DNA from: Dysidea avara
Taxonomy: Eukaryota > Porifera > Demospongiae > Dictyoceratida > Dysideidae
Assembly (NCBI RefSeq): GCF_963678975.1
Contig: NC_089279.1
Location: 34,043,297 to 34,107,296 of the forward strand
Length of the DNA: 64,000 bases
Direction: 5' to 3'
Both the position numbers and the translations under genes were made by a program. The notes below the pieces were generated by a model. That model was not told the origin of the DNA. It did no database searches and saw only the letters and a list, made by a program, of their open reading frames with translations. Below are positions 2-54,787 of this stretch, piece by piece (the stretch's first letter is position 1; each line of letters begins with the position of its first letter).

Positions 2-2140
2 AAGGATGACCTCAATAGCTGGAGGCCAATTTGCCTTCAGAACACGGTGTATAAGGTATACGCCGCCTGCATTGCAAAGCGAATTGCAGCCTGGGCAATG
101 GAGGTTGGTGCCATTAACAAGGCACAAAAGGGGTTCCTCCCATTCGAAGGCTGCTTTGAGCATACATTCTTGCTACAGTCATGCCTACAAGATGCCAGAC
201 GGAGGCGTAGGCGGATATACGTTGCTTGGTTGGATCTGAAGAACGCCTTTGGATCGGTGCCTACCAACCACCTCCTGAAGTCCATACAAGATCTTGGCCT
301 TACTGGGACAACGCTCAATGTGGTAAGAGACATCTACACTGGATCTACAACGCAGGTAAGAATAGGCAAGCGAACCAGTGAAGAGATACGATGCGAGAAA
401 GGGGTCAAGCAGGGCTGTCCACTCAGTCCCATTCTGTTTGACCTAGCGCTGGAACAGCTAGTTGACGGAGTCGACAAAGAGGGCTACGATTTCACTGCTG
501 GTAGAGTAGCGGTCCTGGCATACGCTGACGACCTCTGCTTTATCGCTGAGACACCTGAACAACTGCAGGAAATGCTGGACCAAGCGCAGGAGTATGCAGA
601 CTGGACAGGCCTGCAGTTCAAGGCACCCAAGTGTGCAACCCTTGCCATTAATAACCGGGCTCCACGCCACTTTGTGGAAAGCACGAAGTTCTACATTAAT
701 GGGGAGGAACTGCCAGCTATGGCCTATGAGGACCATTACCGTTACCTAGGATGTGAGCTAGGATCCAACCCCAGAACGGAGGCAACAGCAGCAGGTGACC
801 GGTATATAAGAGAAGCAAAGACCATTTTTGCCAGCCAGCTTACAGACTGGCAGAAATTGAATGCCATGCACCGGTTTGTGAAACCCAAGCTCGACTATGT
901 CATTAGGACCATGCTGCCCACGAAAGGGTGGGCCCAGAATCTGGACAACCAGATAAGGTCTATGGCAAAGAAAGCATTCCGGCTCCCCAGAAGAACAACC
1001 ACCTCGTACTTCTATACCCACTGGAGAGCAGGGGGCTTGGGACTGCCAAATATTGAGGATGAGCTACAGGTCGCCTGGGCATCCCAAGCCTTCAAACATC
1101 TCATTAGTAAGGATAGGTTGATTGTGGCTATGACTGCAAAACGTATCACCGACACTATTGAAGCGAGAACCAGCACGAGAAGCCCAACTGTACAAGAGGT
1201 TATTGACTTCCTAAATACCCGACCAGACATATCTGAAGGGCATGTGAGTAGAGACATCAGATCGCTATATAGTGTGGTGAGAGGATGCTACCACAGACTT
1301 GGTGCCAAATTAATCTTTACTGATGAGGAAGAAGTCAAGTTACAGATTGGCAACACCATCATCCCCGCAGATAAAGCACGGACAGCATCGTCAATGCTCC
1401 GTAACCAAAGGCACACTTACCACTTGGAATGTCTGATTAAGTGCCCCGATCAGGGTAAGTGCTTCAGTTCAGTAGCGAAGCACCCAAGCAGCAACAGCTG
1501 GATTCCTGATGGTAAGTATGTTTCTTTCTCGGCATACCGCTTTGCCAGTAAGGCAAGGTTGAACTTGCTTCCCACTCGCACTGTCCTCAAGCGATCCAAA
1601 CAGCTTCGCGGTACAATCAACTGTAGAAAGTGTGGAGCACACCCAGAGACCTTACCCCATGTACTAAACCACTGTCACTACCACATGGGATTGATTAGAG
1701 TAAGACACGGAGAAATCCTGAAAAGAATAAAGCGAGCAATCCCAAGAGACATGGGGGATGTGTTTCTAGAACAACAGATTCCAGGAGACCCGGAGCACAA
1801 CCGCCCAGATCTGGTAGTGGTAAACAGAGACAGAACCAAAATCATAGTGGTGGACGTCACAATGCCCTTTGAAGCCGACTCGGACAGCCTAGCAGTGGCC
1901 AGACAGACCAAAGTACAAAAGTACAATAACCTGAAAACCTGGCTGCAAGGCAAGTATGAGGAAGTGGAGTTAGAGGCATTTGTTGTTGGAGCACTAGGAT
2001 CCTGGGATCCAGCAAATGAACCAGTACTACGCTTGTTACATATTGGCAGAAACTATTCCAAATTGTTTAGGAGGCTGTGTTGTATATCAGCCATATCAGG
2101 AAGCTATGATATATGGAAAGCTTTCTGCCACAGTTCATAA
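2..2140 (+). CDS. RLE-type non-LTR retrotransposon polyprotein, 5' end outside window
   Basis: The frame is open from the left edge to a TAA at 2138-2140 (712 codons seen), so the start lies upstream. Visible in order: a WRPI segment at about residues 7-10; RT motif A with LDLKNAF (Asp codon at 233); GVKQGCPLSPILF; the catalytic YADD at 521-532; a thumb region; a CX2C...HX4H zinc motif at about 1621-1677; and a C-terminal RPDL...VVDVT stretch (about 1802-1862) typical of a restriction-enzyme-like endonuclease. RT followed by zinc knuckle and endonuclease is the R2/R4/NeSL/CRE arrangement, in which the endonuclease nicks a target and the RT primes from it. There is no stop or frameshift, so insertion is probably recent. 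A T16 run and an A18 run follow the stop. The exact clade is not assigned. Confidence 0.9.
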   Translation, partial: KDDLNSWRPICLQNTVYKVYAACIAKRIAAWAMEVGAINKAQKGFLPFEGCFEHTFLLQSCLQDARRRRRRIYVAWLDLKNAFGSVPTNHLLKSIQDLGLTGTTLNVVRDIYTGSTTQVRIGKRTSEEIRCEKGVKQGCPLSPILFDLALEQLVDGVDKEGYDFTAGRVAVLAYADDLCFIAETPEQLQEMLDQAQEYADWTGLQFKAPKCATLAINNRAPRHFVESTKFYINGEELPAMAYEDHYRYLGCELGSNPRTEATAAGDRYIREAKTIFASQLTDWQKLNAMHRFVKPKLDYVIRTMLPTKGWAQNLDNQIRSMAKKAFRLPRRTTTSYFYTHWRAGGLGLPNIEDELQVAWASQAFKHLISKDRLIVAMTAKRITDTIEARTSTRSPTVQEVIDFLNTRPDISEGHVSRDIRSLYSVVRGCYHRLGAKLIFTDEEEVKLQIGNTIIPADKARTASSMLRNQRHTYHLECLIKCPDQGKCFSSVAKHPSSNSWIPDGKYVSFSAYRFASKARLNLLPTRTVLKRSKQLRGTINCRKCGAHPETLPHVLNHCHYHMGLIRVRHGEILKRIKRAIPRDMGDVFLEQQIPGDPEHNRPDLVVVNRDRTKIIVVDVTMPFEADSDSLAVARQTKVQKYNNLKTWLQGKYEEVELEAFVVGALGSWDPANEPVLRLLHIGRNYSKLFRRLCCISAISGSYDIWKAFCHSS

Positions 2141-12368: not shown

Positions 12369-12785
12369 TTATGGAACTTGGGTCTCTTTACCCATTACAA
12401 TCCAAGGTAACGTATGCAACCAACATGTACTGCAAAGCTATATTGGAGTCTACTTTGCTTACGATGTAGAAGACCATTACTTATTTGAAAGTCTCCAAGA
12501 ATGGGTAGATGACTTTGACCATTACGCCGATAGCAAGTCAATTATTCAGGTAATGATTGGCAACAAATGTGATCTATATTTTGAAGTAGACTCAAAACAA
12601 ATTAGGGTACACTGTGAAGATCTTCAGATAAAACTACATTATTTTGTGTTGGCGAAAATGTTGTGAAGGTTTTTAAAAGCTTGATAACTGCTATCCATTG
12701 TTGCAACACTATTAAGGAGTACAATTCAGATATACACTTATCTCTCACAGATCCTGAAAAATCATCAAAGTGCGTTTGCTGCTAG
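12369..12785 (+). pseudogene. Rab-like small GTPase, decayed second-exon copy
   Basis: Follows an intron-acceptor-like tctttatag. Residues matching the Rab fold are readable in pieces: LWNLG (G3 region), VEDHYLFESLQEWVDDF, the G4 motif NKCD, a DLQIKLHYFV stretch, then ENVVKVFKSLITAIH, ending KSSKCVCC and TAG at 12783-12785. At least two frame breaks exist, including an apparent 10-nt loss across the G5 SAK motif. No first exon (P-loop) was found upstream on this strand. The double-cysteine C-terminus is a Rab geranylgeranylation signal, preserved although the rest is broken. Confidence 0.8.
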
Positions 12786-15910: not shown

Positions 15911-17147
15911 TCACATGCAGCTACATGCCTTGGCTTTAATTGGACCATTCTTCAAGATGCTCTCCTGAGTTAATTCATTGTAGAACACCATCGATATTGC
16001 CTCAAAATTAGTTGGTACACAACACCTCTTTGGTGCCCCTGCATGGCCTCTGGTCTGGTAGTAGTGGAGGGAAAGAATACTTGCATAATCAGTTAATGAT
16101 TCTACTGGTAGTCTTGGACAGTGACCCACACACACTCCAACATCAAACAACTTGGGGATCATCAGATGGATGTTACCTTCCCTTATGGCAGTGTTGTTAA
16201 CCTCCATCTTTTGGAGGTGACATGCCACATGTGATGTCTCAATAGAAATAGTGGTTTGACGTTTTTCTTTTTTGTGCTTTATATCTGACAGCTTTTTTTG
16301 TTTCATTACTTCACTCAAGAATTTGTTAGTGTTATCATGAGTGAACACAACTAACAAAGGTTCAGTGTTCAGTATATCTTCTTGTTCCCCAGAAGAGTAA
16401 ACACCTTCACGTGATAGTTGTTGTTCTCCTTTAGTCAGTGTAACTTTCAAGCCATAGTTAACCCATCCTTGTTTCCAGCCCTCAACTATTGGAGTGACAT
16501 CAAATGTTTTCCATCCTGGACTAGAGTCAGTGTGTTTGAAGGTGAGCTTTAGAGGTGAGTCAATGTTGTTGTCATTGAGCACATAATAAATATTGACCGC
16601 ATAGTAGTCTCCTGGTATTGAGATCTTCTGTAGTAGACGTAGTTCAGCATGAATTATTTCCTCTCCATCAATACTGGCCTTGGCAATGTCAAATTTATAA
16701 TATCCACAACCAGCATCTGTAAAGAGCAATAACTTATATTAGCTATGTACATACTTTAACTTCATGATTGATAATGTAAGTTCATCAGTATATCATTAGC
16801 TATAGTATGCATGCACTCAACTTACTGTTTACTTGGTTCTCATATGATCGTATTGTGTTTGCTGCAATGATTTTTTGGTCTTTCAATGGATTGGTAGGTC
16901 CACTGAAAAAGCTAAAGTTGACATATAGATCTTTCAGGTAGTTGGACAGAGATGCGTTGGCTAGTTCATGAGCAAATTCATTTGCTTTTAAAATGCTATC
17001 ATCAGTTTTCTTTGTGTCTAAATTGGTTTTCCTTCTAATCACCTTCACTGATTGATGCTCCTCTACCATATGTCTGATGGGAACTGAGTGAACTGTAAAA
17101 TGACTGATAGTTAGTAGTAGTACAAACAAGTACACTGAGAACTTCAT
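15911..17147 (-). CDS. TGF-beta-superfamily ligand precursor, two exons
   Basis: Exon 1 is 17147-16826 and exon 2 is 16716-15911, joined across a 109-bp GT-AG intron (GTAAGT donor, ctctttacag acceptor) in phase 1; total 375 residues. I chose the ATG at 17147 because it opens directly into a signal peptide (MKFSVYLFVLLLTISHF). A propeptide of about 240 residues ends in the dibasic KKEKR furin site. The 115-residue mature part has seven cysteines in the family order: one, CVGHC, CC, and CSC one residue from the end, i.e. the cystine knot plus dimer cysteine. The usual WIIAP segment reads LMIP, so the ligand is divergent. Secreted dimeric signal acting on receptor serine kinases by family knowledge; the subfamily (BMP versus activin/TGF-beta) cannot be told by eye. 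Confidence 0.92.
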
Positions 17148-17221
17148 ATCTTGTTTTGTCCTTCTTCTTTGTAAAGCCAATTCAAATCACTTGATAAAAC
17201 AAGTGCTATATACCCAGACAG

Positions 17222-22290: not shown

Positions 22291-24269
22291 CACTCAATTA
22301 ATGGTTGATAGTAAATAATCAGTGGCAGCCATCCAAGCTTACAACTGTAGGCATACTCTTGCAAACCAAACGCTAGCTAGCTACTGATTATGTCAATGAC
22401 ACACATCCACTATTATGAATGGATTTGCAACAAGGGGTCATCAACACACACAACACACACACACAAAATGACACAATCCTATGAACTCAGAGGACAACTT
22501 AGTGTTCAAAAATCTGTAATTCACTGCATCCATATTAGACTATGTTGGTGCTCACAACTGACCAAATTATTAGGTCAATATAGCTCAGTTTTTCCCAGTT
22601 AAATTTATGAATCATCAAAGCTGGTAAATTGATTGCATGTTGAAGACCCCTATTTACAAATTTGGTCATGCACTGAGACAAGTAAATCCTGATTCACTGA
22701 ATTCAAAACTATAGGTCCTGTTTGTAGAGTATTATTGATCTTGATCTTACCAGCCAAGTGGATGCTCTTGAAGGGGTATTGCAGATATAGTCTGTGTTCA
22801 ACTGAGCTTTGTAATAACTCTGCACCGTCAGACCTCCAGTTTAAATTCTGGTACTGTTTACCACGAAAATGCTTTAAAATCAACAAGTGATTTACATAAA
22901 AGGAAGACATAGATACTTGTAAATAATTATACAGTGCTTGTGCCAAAATATTTTAAGAGAGGACACATGTTCATGTTCATGCAGATATATAATTATATTA
23001 CATAGTTGACTATTGTTGGTGGTGTCACCATGGTTACTTGTGGTTGCCCTATAACTATGTAGAGTATCACCATTGTTTGAATGAGATTTACCAAGTCAGT
23101 ATTTTTGTGCAACCTGTAAAATAATCATGTACATGCTATAAACTGTTGTAATTTTGTGTGTTGAAAATAAATGAAGCTGCTAAGAGCATCAGCCACAATA
23201 CAGTAAAACCATGCACCACTGATATTACATATTTCACACTAACCATTCATAAGGGATGCATACATCTCTACACAGGTCAGCCAATATTAAAGGCTTATTA
23301 TGTAATATTTCTTTTTTGCCACAGGTTAGAGAAAAAAACATTGAGCATCAAACTAATTATGATAATAATGTGTACTAGTCCCAAATGTGGCATGTCATCT
23401 TCAAAAGATGGAGGTCAGTAACACAGGCAATGTCCATTAATTTTAATGATCCCTGAGTTGTTTGATGTTGCAGTGTGTGTGGATCACTATACCCGTAGGA
23501 CAGATTGAGTATTCTTAGCTACCTATTGATCTTACCTATTATACAGTTGAGATTGAGAAACCATTGCATTATGTACAAAGTATGACATCATGTGTATAAA
23601 CTTATAATCATGATTTGCTTTGTTTTCGCACAATAAAAATCTGTGAGTTTCATGATTAAAATTTTCATGTTAAGATGATTATTATTGCATAATCATAAGC
23701 GAATCACGGTAACTGGTTATTTCAAAAATAGAGATACACACTCACTTACAGCTTTTCATAATCTAGCTACATCTATAAGGTCAATCTGAAACCTCAACAA
23801 AACCTTTCTACAGTAACACTGGGTCAAGTATCAAGATGAGATGAAGAGTTTAAAACCCACAATTGAAAATATACAATATAAAATCAACTTCACAGAATTA
23901 TATCTAACTCAAAAAACATAAGAATCTCCAACAAAATGTTTGAAAGCTCCAGCAGACATTTCATTGTGATTGTAAAGATTTTTTTCTCTCAAATTTTGGT
24001 AGCATCCACCAAGAAGTTATTGTACCATGTTACAAGCACAAATGTGCATTGAAAAATAAGGCAGTCTGCATTCCAACGTGCAAGATGTAATTATTATCTT
24101 ATGAAATTAATTACATCATATCTTATTAAAATGCAATTGCTTCATTATTCGTACACTTCACATAACCACATTTTCATATAAATACTAGGGACCCGCCGAT
24201 TATGCTGGCATAATAATGAGCATAATAGGTGCCTGAAAGCATTGAGCATAATGCTAGCATAATAGGAAG
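22291..24269. other. No gene recognised
   Basis: AT-rich spacer with short frames only; no domain or repeat boundary could be supported apart from the minisatellite outlier near 22746. Confidence 0.5.
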
Positions 24270-24465
24270 AAAATTTGTGCAATGCTATAAATTCTTGCTT
24301 ATCAAAATACATATCCGACAAAAAGATCGATATACTCTAATAGAACAGTCAGTAACTCTAATAAAATTATCAGAAAGCTGACTGTTCTATTAGAGTATAT
24401 CGATCTTTTCTGTGACATGCATTTTGACAAACAAGGATTTACAGTCTGTGCTTACTGTTTTCCAT
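24270..24465. mobile_element. Foldback element with a perfect 32-bp inner hairpin stem
   Basis: 24321-24352 and 24378-24409 are perfect 32-bp inverted repeats separated by 25 nt. The stems contain the window's recurrent motif actctaatagaacagtca. Outside them the complementarity continues imperfectly (aaattcttgcttatcaaaat against the complement of attttgacaaacaaggattt). The flanks carry repeated gagcataat/aagcataatagg words (24215-24260 and 24515-24565). Probably a MITE or foldback transposon. Confidence 0.8.
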
Positions 24466-24569
24466 AAAGTGCAAAGTTATTAGAAAAACATGGGAACTGA
24501 GGTAAAAATATTGAGCATAATTTAAGCATAATAGGTAAATATTGAGCATTAATTTAAGCATAATAGATA

Positions 24570-25340
24570 CGCTTTACAATAGTTTATTTGAACAAGTAAT
24601 TCAAACCCATACTGTTTGTTACAAATAGCAGATGATGAAGTTTAAGAAGCATATACATGGAACAAGAGACTAGATTCAAATTTTGTAGAGTTGTACAAAT
24701 ATTTGGCCTCAAACATTTTTACTGCTAACTTGAGATGATGTCTTACAGTAAGTAGCGCAAGCACATCTGATAGAAAAGGGAGTGGAAAGCAAGCAGAGAT
24801 CAATGAAAACCATCATTATGAAGCCATAGGAATTAGTAACATGACTCCTATATTAAAAGATGCTATAAGTTCAGTTTGGTGAAGTGTGTGAATTTTGCAG
24901 TTAACGATGCACCCACTCCAAAATTTTACTATGCATGTGCTAGCTAGAAAGCTATTAGAAGCTACAGTACAAGTGCAGTTGCATCTAAAGTACACATGGG
25001 CAAACAGAGCAAGAAGGGGAAAAGCTAGTCTCTTCTAGGAATCAACAAGAGGGTAAAAATTGTATTTGAAGTGTATAAAACTGGTAATACTGCTAAAAAT
25101 ATCTAACAGAACAGTCAACTATTCTTTAATAGAACATAGTCATCAAAACTCTTCTACACTATAAGGAGCAGTGTGCACATAATAGAGTCCATGGCCATGT
25201 GAATGTTTGTAAATTAGCTGTTAACCTCAATAGCTGCAGTTCCCATAGATCTTTTGCCAGCATATAGAATCACATATAATAAACTAAAGTTATTGGCTGT
25301 ATCCATGCTGTTTTATACAAACATGACAAACAGCTGTCAG
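24570..25340. other. No gene recognised
   Basis: AT-rich spacer; motif copies near 25103 and 25125. Confidence 0.5.
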
Positions 25341-27320
<1,980 letters not shown>

Positions 27321-27338
27321 TATTCACGTATAGTCAGA

Positions 27339-27346
27339 TGACGTCA
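27339..27346. promoter_or_regulatory. CRE/ATF palindrome upstream of Rab-like gene B
   Basis: Perfect TGACGTCA 18 bp upstream of the ATG at 27320. Consensus bZIP (CREB/ATF) site; occupancy is inference. Confidence 0.5.
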
Positions 27347-27360
27347 CTATGTTAGCCAGA

Positions 27361-27899
27361 GTCCTACGCAAAGAAAAAAAACTCCAGGCAATTAGTGACC
27401 TTAACCCTCGTCTCAAAGAAGTCATGCTGTTCAGGTACCCATATAGCTAGCGGGTTTTGAGATACGTACGTTATGACATACATTGTATTGCTCCTCTGTA
27501 TTGCTCCAAAGAACAGTGAAGTCTTACAAGAGGAACGACATAATTGTCTGTGGAGTACCAAACCGCAAATTAACTAAATACAGCTAGTCACGTGTTCCAA
27601 ACATGCCAACCAGTCACAAAGGCACTGCACATGGCACTCCATATAAAGTCCAGATAAATAAATTCAGCAGTTTATAAGCGTCTTCCATCAGACTTTTAAA
27701 TCTCTACATCTATAAAACCCTGGTGTACAACACATAGCAGGCCACCACACAGATAGACACTGCATGTACCTTAAAGTACTCTCCATACAAAATGATAGCG
27801 GCAGCCTTAATTTGGAACAAGCTAATGTGTGTATTGAAAATCCAATAAAAACTCAGCTTTTAATACAGGAAATCAACAATAAATTACAGAAATACATGG
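27361..27899. other. No gene recognised between the two Rab-like genes
   Basis: Upstream region of gene B and 3' flank of gene A. No clear AATAAA on the gene A strand close to its stop. Confidence 0.45.
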
Positions 27900-30800
27900 T
27901 TAACAGCAACCTCCTTTGCTTGGCTTTTTGCCAGTACTGGAGCCTACACTGTCAACCTGCACTTTGTCACTTCTGTGTGCTTGTGTATGAGGCTGCTGTC
28001 TGGTGTGTTGTTTCTTGTGGATAGCACTGATCAGGTCATTGAAAGACTTCATTACGTTATGACCAGTCTTAGCTGAGACAGAATAAAACAACTTTGTCTG
28101 CAGCTGCTCACAGCGTGCCTCCACTCTTGATTTCTCTACTTCATTGGGTAGGTCACACTTGTTCCCAATTAGAGCCCACTTGAAGGAATCCATATTAACG
28201 TGTTGAGATGCATCATCAATCCACTCCTGAAGGTTTTCAAATGTATAATTGTCTTCCAAGCAGTAGACCAAGAAAGCTCCATCAGCATTTCGGTAGAAAT
28301 TGTTGGTCAATGTTCTAAATCTTTCACCACCGCCTGTGTCCCAAAGTGATACCTGTTAACAAAATCATAATGTGACAAACTGAGCAGATATTATGACTTT
28401 AGTGCACACACACACACACACACACAGATCTGAATGTTCTATTAGAGTATTATTGCGACTATATCACCAACTGTTCTATTACAGTACTCAGTGTTTACAG
28501 AGCATTGGTAGGAACCACCCACTGTAGCAACTGCAAATTTCTGGTGTACTTTACAACTACAGAACCTTAGTGGAAAAAAAGTTGGAAGTGTAATTAAACT
28601 GTCCCAACAATAAAGCAAAATGTTTTCAAATCCAAACACTTGTAAGCTACCACCACGGAGTGAAAAGTAAGATTGATGATAACAAAAAGACCACCCAGAT
28701 CCTCCGAAGGCACATGGCAGTCTCCCCCAAGCCTTGCAAGCACAGTTCTGAGTGACTTGCAACCCATGGAGATATGAAGAAAAACTTCTCACTTTTTGTA
28801 GACAGTTGGCCTAATGGCCAATGTAATGGTAGTTACTGAAATGTACTTATAACCTCACCAACCACATGAAGTTTTAATTGTGGGTTTGAATTTAAATAGC
28901 TAATCTTGAAAATGTGTTTTCTAGATGGATACTTGTTACTTTGCCTGAAAAATAGTACATAAGCACATGTGGGCGCATCTGTGTAACTTGTTAGTGGTAG
29001 TGTGTACATGTACGCATATGTGCGTGTGCGTGTGCGTGTGTGTGTGTGTGTGGCATGACTAATGGCAGCACCCCTGTTCCTGACAAACTTTAGGCCATCT
29101 AAACTGTGCAATACATGTTTCAGCTATCAGTTTACAGCTCACATCCCCTCAATTACAATTACAAATACAATGGTATAATAAGCTCACAGCTTATATTTGA
29201 CTAAACGACAAGCATCACTGGAAAATACAATGCCAGCCCCAGAATCTGGAGAAGTACTTTCATACTAGGACAATAAATGGATTAATATGGGTTCGAATTA
29301 TGACATCACACATTTCACAAGAGCCCATCAGTGCATCTATAAGTCAACCATGTGTGAGATACTCAGCACATTCTACACTTAAACAATGAATGTAAATGAA
29401 TGTAAATGAATGTAAATGAATGTATATTTTTACCATTCACCAAGGTACATAACATCATGATCAATGCTACGGGCCAAAATATGATCAGATATTATATGGT
29501 TTTGGGGCAGCATTAATTGCTTTAGCCTTTGTGCTGGATAGATACATACCATGTTGATCAATGATGGCTGCTAAGTGACAACTTGCTGTGCTCACTTTTA
29601 TTCTGTTTAGAGTGGACTGTACCAGTTATGTTGAACAGCTAAGAAATGCGATTTGTACAGCAACTATATGGCAAATAAATTATGGGCACTTTTATCATAA
29701 CTCATGACTGAAACAGACTATGAAGACAGACACTTTACTCGGTGTGGTCACCATGAACAGGTGGGTTCATCCATCAACATTCCTACATCCATCTGTCACA
29801 CAACCAGAAAGTAACTCCAGTAAAGAAACAACGAAACTATATTACCCTTCAGTATACAGCAAGTGAATCTAATGATGCACTTTTTATCATGCGATATTTC
29901 AATGTGTTTCATTAGTAAACAAATGTCATGCGAAGTTCCAATGTCACATATTATGAACCTTCGAACATCATCTTTTGAAGCTAATTAATTGTTCAGGAGG
30001 CATGTAAGAATTTCAAGCTCATCATACAGTACAGTAGTACTGTATATTAGAGATCATGAAGGGTAGCACCTTTTCACTAAGCAGAAATCCCTCACAATAG
30101 CTTCATAGCGTCTTGACAGTATTAGTTTGGTAGAATGAAGCCCAAAAGTGTCTCCAGAATGGCCAAAAACGCTTCAGATAGGTCACTACGGAATTTTATA
30201 CTTTTTTATTCAGTGGAAGTTTCTTTTGACTACCTAACTGACTGACTGACTAATGCCTTCATACAAGTATAACTTGATAACGGCTAAGGCTACAAGCTTG
30301 ATTTTTTCAACATTCGACATCACTTTAACCCGACAGGTGCCTTTTGGCATGCCGCAATATGTACAGTGCACTCATCATGGACTCTCCTTTGTGTCTCATT
30401 CCTTTTTTCTGACAACCCAAGATGTCAATTTGTGGTAGCTTGATGACATTTGTAAATGGGAATTGTCCGCATTTTCTGGATTGACTACAGAGGTGCTTCT
30501 CCTACTGTTCTTCGTTTGTAACACTTTGAAACAGGCTGAACATAATTGAAAGCGAAGTGTAATGGCCACTTCACTTTCAAGTCGTCGAATCATCCATATT
30601 ATCCGTGGTGACTGGATCGATTGCAGAGGCCCTTCTCCTACTGTTCTTCGCCTGTAACACTGTGTAACAGGCTGAACATAGAGGCATATTGGCCACTTAA
30701 CTTTTTGAGTCAGTAATTATTAATAGTTGAGGTGCGTGTTCAGATAAATACACTAATAAACTCAGGTGCCATTCTTTCTTTGATGCGGTGTGCACGGGTT

Positions 30801-33043
30801 CACCAGTCACAATAATGTTACAAAAAACAAGGAAAATTATGAATTTCAAGTTCCAATTAGGGATCACGGGAAAAAAGTAGGGAAACAAGAGAGATTGCCT
30901 ACACTTGCAAATATACTAGTGGACTGCAGGTGTAGGTGAACTCCCTTCTTTTCATTGCTATATATCAGGTAACAGTAAAATGGGGGAAAAAATGGTTTCT
31001 TTTTCAGCATTAGCGATAGATGCATTTCTAGTTGCTATAAAAAAAATTTAAACCAACTCTCATTGCAACATATCTATAAAGCAGTTGCACAAATACTTAC
31101 ATTAGACACGCTTAGCAAAATGTGTGGCAACAATCCATTGTCAAATGGCGTATTCAATTCTACTGCCACAGCGCAAGGACAGATAGCTTAACCACTAAAG
31201 TGTTACATTCACCTATCATAAAGGTAATAATATACTAGAGGAATGAGGTCTGGTTTCTGAAAATTCCACCTTTTACTGGTTCATTCACAAAGCCAGATAC
31301 CTACCGTATAAGCAGAAAATTTGGCAAGGAATTAAATTTGGTAGTTGGCAAATTTTCACTGAAACAAATATAAATCCACCAAAAGAGATCGAAAACACAG
31401 AAGGGATGAGACTTGTGAACCTATGCAACTAATTCTGATAAAGATCTAGCCAACATTGAAATATATTATTACTAGCTACTAAGTATGGTCCCACAGCTAC
31501 AGCTAGTCATTTCCCTGCACGTTTCAGATTTTTCGTATGTAGGCTAGAGGCATCTGCAAGGCACATTCTCCCTACACCCGTTGATGTATCCTGTGTCAGA
31601 TAATTACTGTAGCTACCTTACTTGTGGTCTCGGCCTTGGATGCAGCTATAAAACTCAAAGCTATCACTCAAGCTCAGGCCTTAATTTAATTTTTAAGGTG
31701 CCAAGGACAAATGTCCTTACGTATTCACAAATGTACAGACATAGCGTCAAATTGTACAGACATGAGCTAGACGAGCACTTTTTATACACTGCTGGAATTG
31801 GAATAGAGAATTTCCATTGAGAGTTTTGAGGTTAAACACAACCACATAGCTGCAATATATCACCAGGCTGTGGGTCATTACAGCTGCTGGTGATAGCAGT
31901 ACACAAAGGGGAGGAGGCATTGGTAAATCCTTGGTTTGAGAAAGTGTAGTATCTCCTAGCAACCAAGTGACAGTTATTGTTAGCACTACAAACAGACATG
32001 TACACATCAGCTTTTATGGTACCACTATAGGTTTTGCAAGGTCATGTGTGTCCACCCAAAACTAATTATGTGCAGACATTGTGCTATTTGTTAGGATTTT
32101 GTCCGTTGACCGCACGTTAATTTAAGGCCTGCAAGCTGCTATGACTATCCTTTGGTTTCGTGATGCCATCTGAAATTTTCAATGTGGTCCGTGTATGATT
32201 AGCATGGGCCCAAACAAGCAAGACAGACCGTCAAATTTAAATAGACAAGTTGTTTAATTCGTCAAATATTGTTTCTGTCAAATTTTCTGTTTATACGGTA
32301 TCCATCTTTACTAAGAAAGAAAGCTCACCATACCAACTTACGGGTGGACCTGTTTCGAAAATGCATGGGAAAATACATGCTATTTTTGGCATGTAGCCAG
32401 AAAGCAAACAGGCCATGCTCTCGCTACTCTAGTACCCGATAACAGAAGATTATCAACACCAACATAGCTTGATTGTTAGTCACTCTACAATAGCAGGACA
32501 AGGAAACACGCAATTTTCCTAGAACCTGGCTGTACAAATGCCACACATTTTACCGTGTTTCAGTTGAACGCCACACCTGTGACATCACATGCAACCACTC
32601 TATAGCCAAACTCTAAATAACGTTATGTATACGCTGGCAAAAAATCCTAGACACACATACAAATACCACTATTTAGCACCAAATGTGATAGCTTCAAGCT
32701 CTTGCTACAGGACCCTTCAATGCCTCTCAGGTTGCAACAAGCAAGGAAACTGTATCACTTTAATGTTGATAATATTCATTGCTCGAATTACTACTCAAAT
32801 TGGATAAAGCGTATCGTATGATAGGGAGAATAACTCTTGTTACAAACTCTACAACAATGCTACTGGACTCACATTAACTTGGTCATCTCCTATAGTAGTG
32901 GTGTATGTGTGTCGGTCAGCGCCTTGAGTTGATTGGCCGTCATGAAATCTACCCGTCTTGATTCTGTTGAACAGCGATGTCTTGCCAACGCCTGCTTCAC
33001 CCAGCAATATTATCTTGTATTCGTATTGCTCACGGTTGGCCAT
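27900..33043 (-). CDS. Rab-like small GTPase with altered switch II, two exons
   Basis: Exon 1 is 33043-32873 and exon 2 is 28352-27900, phase 0, with a 4.5-kb GT-AG intron (GTGAGT donor, ttgttaacag acceptor); 207 residues, the usual Rab length. Visible: P-loop GEAGVGKTS (about 15-23), effector-region Thr in STQGAD, G3 WDTGGGE, G4 NKCD, G5 SAK, and a C-terminal GGCC for double geranylgeranylation. Normal Rabs have DTAGQE; here Ala and the catalytic Gln are both Gly, predicting weak intrinsic GTP hydrolysis. Role by family: membrane trafficking switch; the specific subfamily is not recognised. It is divergently paired with the YccV-domain gene, start codons 158 bp apart. Two decayed paralogues lie at 25.3-27.3 and 12.4 kb. 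Confidence 0.92.
30080..30960 (+). repeat. Dispersed 0.8-kb repeat, copy 1
   Basis: Matches 36170-36950 along its length: taattagtttggtagaatgaag-like start, agccttcataca, gacatcactttaac, aggtgccttttggcat, gattgactacagaggtgctt, ggctgaacata, ccattctttctttgatg, caccagtcac and a final cctacac...ctcccttc. A 130-bp internal piece (gattgactacagaggtgcttctcctactgttcttcg-like) is duplicated within this copy near 30478 and 30612. No coding potential. Confidence 0.7.
31302..32300. mobile_element. 999-bp terminal-inverted-repeat element
   Basis: The left end taccgtataagcagaaaatt and the right end aattttctgtttatacggta are near-perfect complements, with further pairing just inside. No transposase was recognised, so probably a non-autonomous DNA transposon, or two insertions sharing ends. 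Confidence 0.6.
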
Positions 33044-33201: not shown

Positions 33202-41591
<8,390 letters not shown>

Positions 41592-48210: not shown

Positions 48211-48299
48211 CCTGAAATAGCAGTTGTATCACATTTTGAACATTGTTTTGTTGTAAATTATAATCTTAGAAAGAGTGACTAGCTATTGCAATATTGATA

Positions 48300-49847
48300 A
48301 TGGCTGCCAAACAACTAAAGGAAATTGTCAATACTCTCTCCTGCCCAATATGTAGCAAGTTGTTCAAGAAGCCCAAGTATCTACCTTGTCACCATTCCTA
48401 CTGTGAACAATGTCTAGAGCAGTGGAAGAAAGACTCTTGGATCACATGCCCTGAGTGTAGAAAGGAATGGAAAGTTCCTACAGGAGGAGTAAAGGATTTT
48501 GATAATGCTTTTATCATCAATCATATGATGGACCAGTTAGTAGTAAAGTATACTCCTCAAAATGTTAAACCAGAAGTTGAATGCAATGAATGCCTCAGGT
48601 ATAATCCAATAAAAGCATTTTGTCCCAAGTGCAGTTTGTTCCTTTGTAATGGTTGTAGTGACTATCACAAGGGCAGTAGAATACTTCAAGATCATCATTT
48701 AGTAGATTTAATGGAGATCACTGTATCAACTGAAGCACCAGATCCTCAACAGTGTCGAGTTATAGATATTCCCAAGAACACCATTATTGGTCAGAAGGTA
48801 GAGTTCACCATCATCACAAGGGACAGCAATGGTGATCGTTGTTATAGAGAGAGTGAAGATCAAGTGAGTGTTCGGATAAAAGAAATCAATAACACTATAG
48901 TCTCCGAAAATAATGATGGTGTTTATGTGGCTTGTTTTAAATTACACCAAGTTGGAGAAGTGAAGGTGTCAGTATGCGTCAATGAAGAACACATAAAGGG
49001 AAGCCCTTATAGCATTGTGGCTCCCCACGATTACACCTCACTATGCAAGCCCAGTAAAATAGTTAACAATGATGGTAAGATGGGTGGACCTCATGGGATT
49101 AGGTTTAGTAATAATGGCACATGGGCAATAGTTGACTGGTCCAATGACTGTGTATGTCTGTATGACGGTGAAGATAAGTTGATCAAGGAAATTACATGTA
49201 TATCCAGTGATGGTCGGTATTGTTATCCACCTAATAGAGTTGCATTTGATGATGAGGGTCAATTGTATGTTACTACCGAAGCAGGAGTGTGGAAGTTTTC
49301 TAGTGAAGGTAACTACTTGACTCATATCAGCAAATGTGGATCTAAGGATGGTGAAACAAAGTGTCCACATGGTCTCATGGTACACAATAGCAAAGTATAT
49401 GTTGCTGACTTTGGTAACAATCGCATTGCTGTTTTCCTTGTCAGTGGTAAATTTCAAAAAAACATTGGAATAGGACAGTTGGGCAATCCATATGATGTAG
49501 CAGTTACTAGTAATGATGAGTTACTGGTGGCTGATGATAAACACAATTGCATTTACAAGTTTACACTAGATGGCATTTACACTGGCAAGTTTACAACAGA
49601 TGATGATGGACTAAAATTTCCCAGAGGCATCGCGGTTGACCCACATGGATGTGTTTTAGTGACTTATACTTATAACCATCAAGTTGTGATAATTGACCAA
49701 CAGGGAAAGCTTATACACAAGTTTGGATCTTGTGGATCTGGTGATGGTGAATTTTCATGTCCTGATGGGATAGCTGTTAATAAGAATGGTGACATCTATG
49801 TTGCTGATAGTGACAACAACAGAATTCAAATTTTCTCCAATTATTAA
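48300..49847 (+). CDS. TRIM-NHL protein (RING, B-box-like, filamin, NHL repeats), single exon
   Basis: 515 residues from the ATG at 48300; the upstream TTG codon in frame is not used because the paralogous pseudogene also starts MAAK. A C3HC4 RING at C15, C18, C30, H32, C35, C38, C50 and C53 predicts E3 ubiquitin ligase activity. A B-box-like zinc region with CNEC, CPKC, CNGC and DYH spans about 95-135. A filamin/ABP280 immunoglobulin-like repeat (DIPKNTIIGQ to GSPYSIV) covers about 150-243. NHL repeats (GGPHGIRFS, PHGLMVHN, GNPYDVAVT, KFPRGIAVD, CPDGIAVNKNGDIYVADSDN) fill 250-515 as a beta-propeller for RNA or protein binding. No long coiled coil is seen between B-box and filamin. Likely cytoplasmic, in the TRIM2/3/71 class; no orthology is claimed. 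Confidence 0.95.
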   Translation: MAAKQLKEIVNTLSCPICSKLFKKPKYLPCHHSYCEQCLEQWKKDSWITCPECRKEWKVPTGGVKDFDNAFIINHMMDQLVVKYTPQNVKPEVECNECLRYNPIKAFCPKCSLFLCNGCSDYHKGSRILQDHHLVDLMEITVSTEAPDPQQCRVIDIPKNTIIGQKVEFTIITRDSNGDRCYRESEDQVSVRIKEINNTIVSENNDGVYVACFKLHQVGEVKVSVCVNEEHIKGSPYSIVAPHDYTSLCKPSKIVNNDGKMGGPHGIRFSNNGTWAIVDWSNDCVCLYDGEDKLIKEITCISSDGRYCYPPNRVAFDDEGQLYVTTEAGVWKFSSEGNYLTHISKCGSKDGETKCPHGLMVHNSKVYVADFGNNRIAVFLVSGKFQKNIGIGQLGNPYDVAVTSNDELLVADDKHNCIYKFTLDGIYTGKFTTDDDGLKFPRGIAVDPHGCVLVTYTYNHQVVIIDQQGKLIHKFGSCGSGDGEFSCPDGIAVNKNGDIYVADSDNNRIQIFSNY

Positions 49848-54017: not shown

Positions 54018-54787
54018 TGTTACAATCAAGCTAGAGGACTACCAAAATCACTACTAGTCACAACACTGTAAGGGCTTCCCTTGATGTGTTCTCCATTGAC
54101 ACACACTGACACCTTCACCTCTCCAACTTGTTGTGATTCAAAACAAGTCATATAAACACCATCATTATTATCAGAGACTAGTATTGTGTTATTGACTCCT
54201 CCTAACTGGACACTCACTTGATCTGCACCTTCTCTGAAACAACAATCACCATTGTTGTCCCTTGTGATGATGGGAACTCCACCTTCTTACCAATAATGGC
54301 ACTCTTGGGAACATCTATAATTTGACACTGTTGAGGATCTGGTACATGGTGCTTCAGTTGATACTGTGATCTCCATTAAATCTACTAAACGATGACCTCG
54401 AAGTATTCTACTGTACTTGTGATAGTCACTACAACCATTACAAAGGAACAAACTGCACTTGGGACAGAAAACCTTTATTGGATTATACCTGAGGCATTCA
54501 TTACATTCAACTTCAGCTACATTTTGAGCATGCTTTAGCACTAACTGATCCACCAAATGATTGATGATAAAGGCATCGTCAAACTCCTTCACTCCTCCTC
54601 CAGGAAGTATCACTTTCTGTCTACATTGGGGACATGTGATGTGATCATAAGAGTTTTTCTTTAACTCCTCCAGACACTATTCACAGTAGGAATGGTGACA
54701 AGGTAGATACTTGGGCTTCTTGAATAACTTGTGACATATTGAACAGCTAAGAGTATTGACAATCTTCTTTAGGTGTTTGGCAGCCAT
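54018..54787 (-). pseudogene. TRIM-NHL pseudogene lacking the NHL propeller
   Basis: Starts ATGGCTGCC (54787-54779) and follows the intact gene closely through RING, B-box region and most of the filamin repeat. Three lesions are visible: a TAG replacing the Gln after YCE in the RING, a 7-nt insertion (near 54340) after STEAP, and a 1-nt deletion in the filamin repeat near VEF (about 54273). Homology stops after GSPYSVV and the NHL repeats are absent. About 100 bp of promoter, including the TATA box, is conserved upstream to about 54930. Confidence 0.92.

Follow-up and report, generated by a model that had tools for sequence, protein, structure and literature searches.

The glutamine (Gln) of the G3 box, which typically reads DTAGQE in Rab proteins, is the residue with which most such GTPases turn themselves off, and it plays different parts in different small GTPases. 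In Ras, Gln61 and an arginine (Arg) of the GTPase-activating protein (GAP) work jointly, and in the Rab33 and Rab1 complexes the TBC-domain GAP provides both the Arg and the catalytic Gln (PMC3919270). The Rab5 Gln mutant retains its GAP response while its basal hydrolysis falls more than five-fold, a pattern that the paper also gives for Rab33B with RUTBC1 (PMC3919270). Gln mutants of Rab1 and Rab35 lose most GAP-stimulated hydrolysis, with a basal change of less than about 1.5-fold (PMC3919270). In cells Rab35 Q67A is inactive because its guanine nucleotide exchange factor requires the Gln; Rab1 Q67A is still activated by TRAPP (PMC3919270). 'Dominant active' Rabs are commonly made by mutating the Gln, a practice that the same paper argues is unsafe (PMC3919270). 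Given these Rab-by-Rab differences, loss of the Gln predicts altered timing and partner choice, in a direction that depends on the Rab, and not constitutive activity per se. Here we describe g4, a Rab-like gene of the sponge Dysidea avara whose G3 box reads DTGGGE, and the tandem family to which it belongs. It lies in a stretch of 64,000 nucleotides (C8:34043297-34107296, C8 being contig NC_089279.1), called the window below; positions without a contig are those of the window.

Rabs without the canonical G3 box occur naturally. Rab24, with DTAGSE, and Rab25 are examples, so the box is treated here as typical and not as defining, and g4 is called Rab-like. The tandem family described below resembles several known proteins. 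Rab24 is reported to have very low intrinsic GTPase activity (PMC4756281). Trypanosoma brucei RabX2 has no detectable GTPase activity, which is ascribed to Ser in place of Ala in its WD box; RabX1 and RabX2 are a divergent pair that arose by tandem duplication and are described as trypanosomatid-restricted (PMC2748683). Tandem duplication is common to that pair and the sponge family, a likeness taken from how the pair is described. The Caenorhabditis elegans Rab-like protein K02E10.1 carries Q70M, and its authors suspect a pseudogene or mis-annotation (PMC3504004). With Met at the Gln site it is, as described, Gln-less like the sponge family.

The g4 gene is on the minus strand. Exon 1 (32873..33043) holds the start codon, the G1 P-loop and switch I (residues 1-57) in an open frame that ends at a GTGAGT donor, and is 55-65% identical with exon 1 of four intact paralogues and of a broken one, g5. 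The phase-0 intron of 4,520 bases (28353..32872) ends in a TTAACAG acceptor. Exon 2 (27900..28352, stop included) carries the G3 box, G4 (NKCD), G5 (SAKTG) and a GGCC tail in one reading frame. Splicing is predicted from the DNA, from the GT-AG structure common to the paralogues; one phase-0 intron position is common to all five intact genes. The spliced product would be a Rab-like GTPase of 207 amino acids. With both exons it matches the Pfam Ras model with 135.5 bits (cut-off 21.6) over model positions 1-161 of 162, and with G1 (GEAGVGKT), G4 and G5 in order it fits a Ras superfamily small GTPase. Three NCBIfam models matched, of which only the general small_GTP domain exceeds its cut-off. 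The C-terminal GGCC is a predicted prenylation tail of the double-Cys type; the paralogues end in SCCS, CSC, SCC and ICC. On this predicted structure g4 is a genuine two-exon gene for a membrane-traffic-type GTPase. The initial annotation had described an intact gene with a complete intron model, with G1, G4, G5 and the terminal CC preserved, and all of this is borne out by the open frames, the paralogues and the product.

The same annotation had placed glycine (Gly) at both the conserved alanine (Ala) and the Gln positions of G3, and the codons agree. The six DTGGGE codons (28323..28340, placed by counting V S L W and then D from 28352, where exon 2 begins) read GAC ACA GGC GGT GGT GAA. Turning the GGT of the Gln position into either Gln codon would take three base changes, and the canonical WDTAGQE is WDTGGGE in g4. 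In the 550.8-Mb assembly of 108 contigs the DNA pattern WDTGGxE has five exact matches: DTGGQE twice on C1, DTGGDE at C8:9.2 Mb, DTGGSE in the paralogue g1 and DTGGGE in g4 only. The reversed control pattern has three, so a single match to WDTGGxE is weak evidence of a gene.

Paralogues, possibly lineage-specific, had been reported nearby, and the locus is in fact a cluster. A search with both exons over 234 kb of C8 around g4, of which 200 bases are N, found seven family copies on the minus strand, from about C8:34023486 to about C8:34190317 (about 167 kb). Five are intact and two are broken. The intact ones, all of two exons, are g1 (DTGGSE; C8 34.190-34.188 Mb), g2 (DTAGAE; 34.180-34.172 Mb), g3 (DTGGGGG; 34.155-34.150 Mb), g4 in the window and g6 (DMGKPQ; 34.025-34.023 Mb). 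G1, G4 and G5 are invariant across the five. The G3 Gln is absent in all of them; by the alignment used, which is uncertain for g3 through its extra glycines, its site holds Gly twice, Ser, Ala and Pro, and the Ala site is Gly in four of the five. Loss of the Gln is therefore a property of the tandem family and not of one odd gene, and is more general than had been noted. The family pattern is one in which the TAGQE of G3 diverged while the nucleotide-binding motifs and a prenylation-type tail were kept.

The family is old. Across all ten pairs of intact genes the proportion of synonymous differences (pS) is 0.66-0.81 and that of nonsynonymous differences (pN) is 0.22-0.38. The ratio of nonsynonymous to synonymous divergence (dN/dS) is 0.11-0.17 in the five pairs with a computable dS, which is itself 1.6-4.9 and makes the ratio rough; in the remaining five pairs dS is infinite by the method used. 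These comparisons omit the start codons of g1 and g6. Near-saturated synonymous divergence with low dN/dS shows the five genes to be old and under purifying selection. The exon 2 columns of the five members were also compared with those of nine Rabs that have the Gln (six sponge loci from the same assembly and three PDB chains). Of 24 columns conserved in at least eight of the nine, 11 are kept in all five members (among others W61, D62, G120, N121, K122, D124, S150 and A151) and the other 13 differ in one member or more. These 13 include all six columns of T-A-G-Q-E-R. The canonical residue is lost in all five at five columns, namely the Gln, D88, A138, E148 and T149. G3 is the most changed block of the family, yet not the only changed one.

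Gln-less G3 boxes also occur elsewhere in this genome. The exon 2 protein as query had 59 matches, the top six being cluster copies. Further loci (L-numbers) were taken from Ras-model and query matches and are not a random sample. Among 33 Rab-like G3 boxes compared, which include the near copies L029/L030, L037/L048 and L043/L044, 19 have the Gln (L002, L003, L005, L029, L030, L031, L034, L037, L039, L047, L048, L051, L053, L054, L055, L057, L058, L059 and L061) and 14 do not. The latter are the five cluster genes and nine others, with Thr (L036, L043, L044 and L045), Val (L026), Ile (L027), Gly (L040), Ser (L056) or Asn (L046) at the site. The boxes of these Rab-like or Ras-like exons include DTAGVE (L026, C8:33.77 Mb), DTAGIE (L027, C8:0.86 Mb), DTAGGE (L040, C13:7.51 Mb), DTAGTE (L036, L043-L045) and DTAGSE (L056). 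Excluded from the 33 were loci judged Ras-, Rho- or Arf-like by eye (L001, L004, L006, L007, L028, L032, L033, L035, L049, L050, L052 and L060), three whose G3 lay outside the stretch or was unread (L008, L038 and L041) and the pseudogenes g5, g7 and L042. By the by-eye labels, the Rab1-like L058 and L059 and the Rab7-like L047 and L061 keep the Gln, and the Rab7-like L046 is without it. As judged from these predicted exons, Gln loss is frequent among the divergent Rab-like genes of this genome. In a separate observation, L037 and L048 (C1:37.06 and 31.92 Mb) are nearly identical Rab-like copies with DTGGQE, that is, with Ala changed to Gly and the Gln kept. The family alignment gave 153 pattern matches and no relatives in viral contigs, and 141 and none in bacterial and archaeal contigs, results that have no bearing on animal orthologues. 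An Rfam scan of L001, another locus, had no matches and is uninformative for g4.

The five genes are likely an orphan, divergent Rab-like family. In the PDB the top match by sequence is RABA1a (104.2 bits, of 900 matches) and the best by family profile reaches 127.5 bits (of 912). The best 60 of each are all named Rab, Ypt, Sec4 or alike, a few of them under gene names such as GH01619p. Among the matches listed are Rab11/Ypt31, Ypt6, Rab1, Rab10, Rab30, Rab43 and Rab8 types, none of which clearly leads, and exon 2 is 34-37% identical to Rab1A, Ypt31 and RABA1a. The family differs from canonical Rabs (Rab11/Ypt31, Rab1 and Rab8 types) in G3 and in the Asp after LVY, which is Cys or Ser in all five members. 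As for the RabF motifs, RFRTLT and FYRNA of g4 resemble RabF3 and RabF4, and QGADR of switch I and LVYCLE depart from RabF1 and RabF5. The five-gene clade is firm, with support of 96/94 in a first tree and 99/96, 98/94 and 100/99 in three later trees, in which the Gln column was masked and four rows were added. With provisional reference sequences, Rab24 joins Rab5 and Rab25 joins Ypt31/RABA1a, and the five genes stand apart. Rab24 is thus like the family in being an atypical Gln-less Rab and unlike it in its grouping. A single clade of Gln-less genes was considered and rejected. The first tree united the five genes with L026, L027 and L040 at 96/95, L036 standing apart; in all three later trees the group took in a gene with DTAGQE (L003 with a Rho row, L003, and L002, at 83/90, 90/89 and 67/88).

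From these sequences we propose, at a probability of roughly 0.55, that g4 is a functional member of this tandem, divergent Rab-like family, slow in itself and timed by a GAP. The protein would bind GTP and would be anchored in a membrane by prenylation. It would be activated by an exchange factor for which the switch II Gln is dispensable. Its intrinsic hydrolysis would be slow, and its GTP state would be ended mainly by a TBC-domain GAP with its own Arg and Gln, as happens when the Gln of Rab5 or Rab33B is mutated, or else by turnover. Several points weigh against this proposal. The family profile is nearer to Rab11 and Rab1 types than to Rab5, and the Gln mutants of Rab1 and Rab35 behave in the opposite way to that of Rab5, basal hydrolysis being little changed and the GAP response much lower (PMC3919270). 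These two points speak against the kinetic step and keep the probability from being higher. D88, A138, E148 and T149 are changed in all five members together with the Gln, so partners may differ too. Knock-outs of RabX1 and RabX2 have no major trafficking defect (PMC2748683). The initial annotation had suggested that g4 is naturally slow or constitutively active. The first half is plausible by analogy with Rab24 and RabX2; the second does not follow, since a TBC GAP can supply the Gln and Rab35 Q67A is inactive (PMC3919270).

A switch locked in the GTP form, with hydrolysis very slow with or without a GAP and activity lasting until degradation, as proposed for RabX2, is unlikely. The undetectable activity of RabX2 is attributed to a change at the Ala, and the sponge family has Ala changed to Gly in four of five members and the Gln lost in all five; simulations of HRas A59G also indicate impaired hydrolysis (PMC2748683; PMC7567374). 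Such a lock is hard to reconcile with TBC GAPs that bring their own Gln (PMC3919270), and Gly at the Ala site coexists with the Gln in the Arf-like genes (DVGGQ) and L037 (DTGGQE) of this genome. An uncoupled or inert protein, which without the Gln is not activated by its exchange factor or serves as a non-cycling membrane scaffold, is unlikely. It would agree with the inactive Rab35 Q67A (PMC3919270) and with the boxes of g6, which is also without the T, G and E of G3, and of g3, which is altered. Against it, none of the five members varies in G1, G4 or G5 and dN/dS is low, so that nucleotide binding seems selected, and TRAPP still activates Rab1 Gln mutants (PMC3919270). It is very improbable that DTGGGE reflects gene decay or faulty sequencing: two of the seven minus-strand copies are indeed broken, so decay occurs at the locus, but the g4 frame runs through 207 codons without interruption, its synonymous divergence from the paralogues is close to saturation and its dN/dS against them is low, and a private base error is ruled out by the other four intact cluster paralogues, which lack the Gln as well.

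A wider and decidedly speculative reading, for which we see only a slim chance, takes G3 as the diversifying part on a held frame (GGG, GGS, AGA, GGGGG and GKP), which may give each copy a different GTP timer or partner surface. Together with the other Gln-less Rab-like genes of the genome (Val, Ile, Gly, Thr and Ser), the sponge would then be a lineage in which Rab timing was handed to GAPs on a large scale. Gln-less atypical Rabs are already known, and the family adds a variant; it is not a new kind of protein and does not overturn the class. Five intact natural Gln-less paralogues under purifying selection, with four residues at the site, nevertheless form a comparative set on the role of the Gln in the Rab cycle. 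Many Rab expansions have been described (Klopper et al., 2012; PMC3425129), and the excerpted text of that paper mentions neither such a family nor the Gln. That of a Tetrahymena Rab paper (PMC2954822) holds nothing on Gln-less Rabs. Literature searches for the strings 'DTGGGE' and 'DTGGQE' had no match for either, and among the matches listed for sponge and early-animal Rabs no such family appears in titles or the starts of abstracts.

The locus has been reshaped by duplication. The region at about 23790-29543 of the window aligns with C8:34022305-34027452 as a series of blocks whose DNA identity is 74-91%, chief among them 27834-28926 (82%), 25086-26111 (82%), 27048-27376 (86%) and 29133-29543 (79%); two blocks are inverted (24568-25067 and 23951-24140). 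The broken copy g7 duplicates exon 2 of g4 and contains stops. Its exon 1 was not found in the search of 234 kb with both exons, and the duplication match stops within the g4 intron, which suggests that g7 lacked an exon 1 from the start. In g5, exon 1 (27108..27320, minus strand) is open with a GTGAGT donor, and exon 2 (25419..25771, minus strand) has stops and a frameshift, its G3 reading WDMSKPQ as it stands, unmended. From the predicted frames, g4 stayed intact and g7 decayed after duplication, and likewise g6 stayed intact and g5 decayed. A family relic with two stops, the part with G4, lies at 12433..12684 on the plus strand, and L042 (C8:36.54 Mb) is a rearranged g2 copy whose two halves lie on opposite strands. 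In g5 a CTG/CAG array (26418-26954) of about 178-179 uninterrupted units (100% matches) separates exon 1 from the broken exon 2; its counterpart in the duplicate at C8:34024810 has only 4. The array reflects either marked expansion of the trinucleotide or an artefact of assembly.

The window has other features, among which a TGF-beta ligand and a RING-filamin-NHL protein would suit an animal genome. An open frame of 712 amino acids (2-2140, plus strand) looks by eye like the reverse transcriptase of a non-long-terminal-repeat (non-LTR) retrotransposon, and the G+C of the window peaks, at 0.495, in the 2-kb bin of this frame. A TGF-beta ligand is encoded at 15911-16738 (minus strand; mature domain 46.6 bits, propeptide 35.4 bits), and the open frame at 16800-17186 (minus strand) may be its upstream exon. 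At 37531-37728 (plus strand) an exon encodes the beginning of a YccV-like (hemimethylated DNA-binding) domain (40.6 bits). One exon at 48279-49847 (plus strand) encodes the whole RING-filamin-NHL (TRIM-like) protein, up to 522 amino acids long, and a related B-box fragment, below Pfam cut-offs, lies at 54287-54676 (minus strand).

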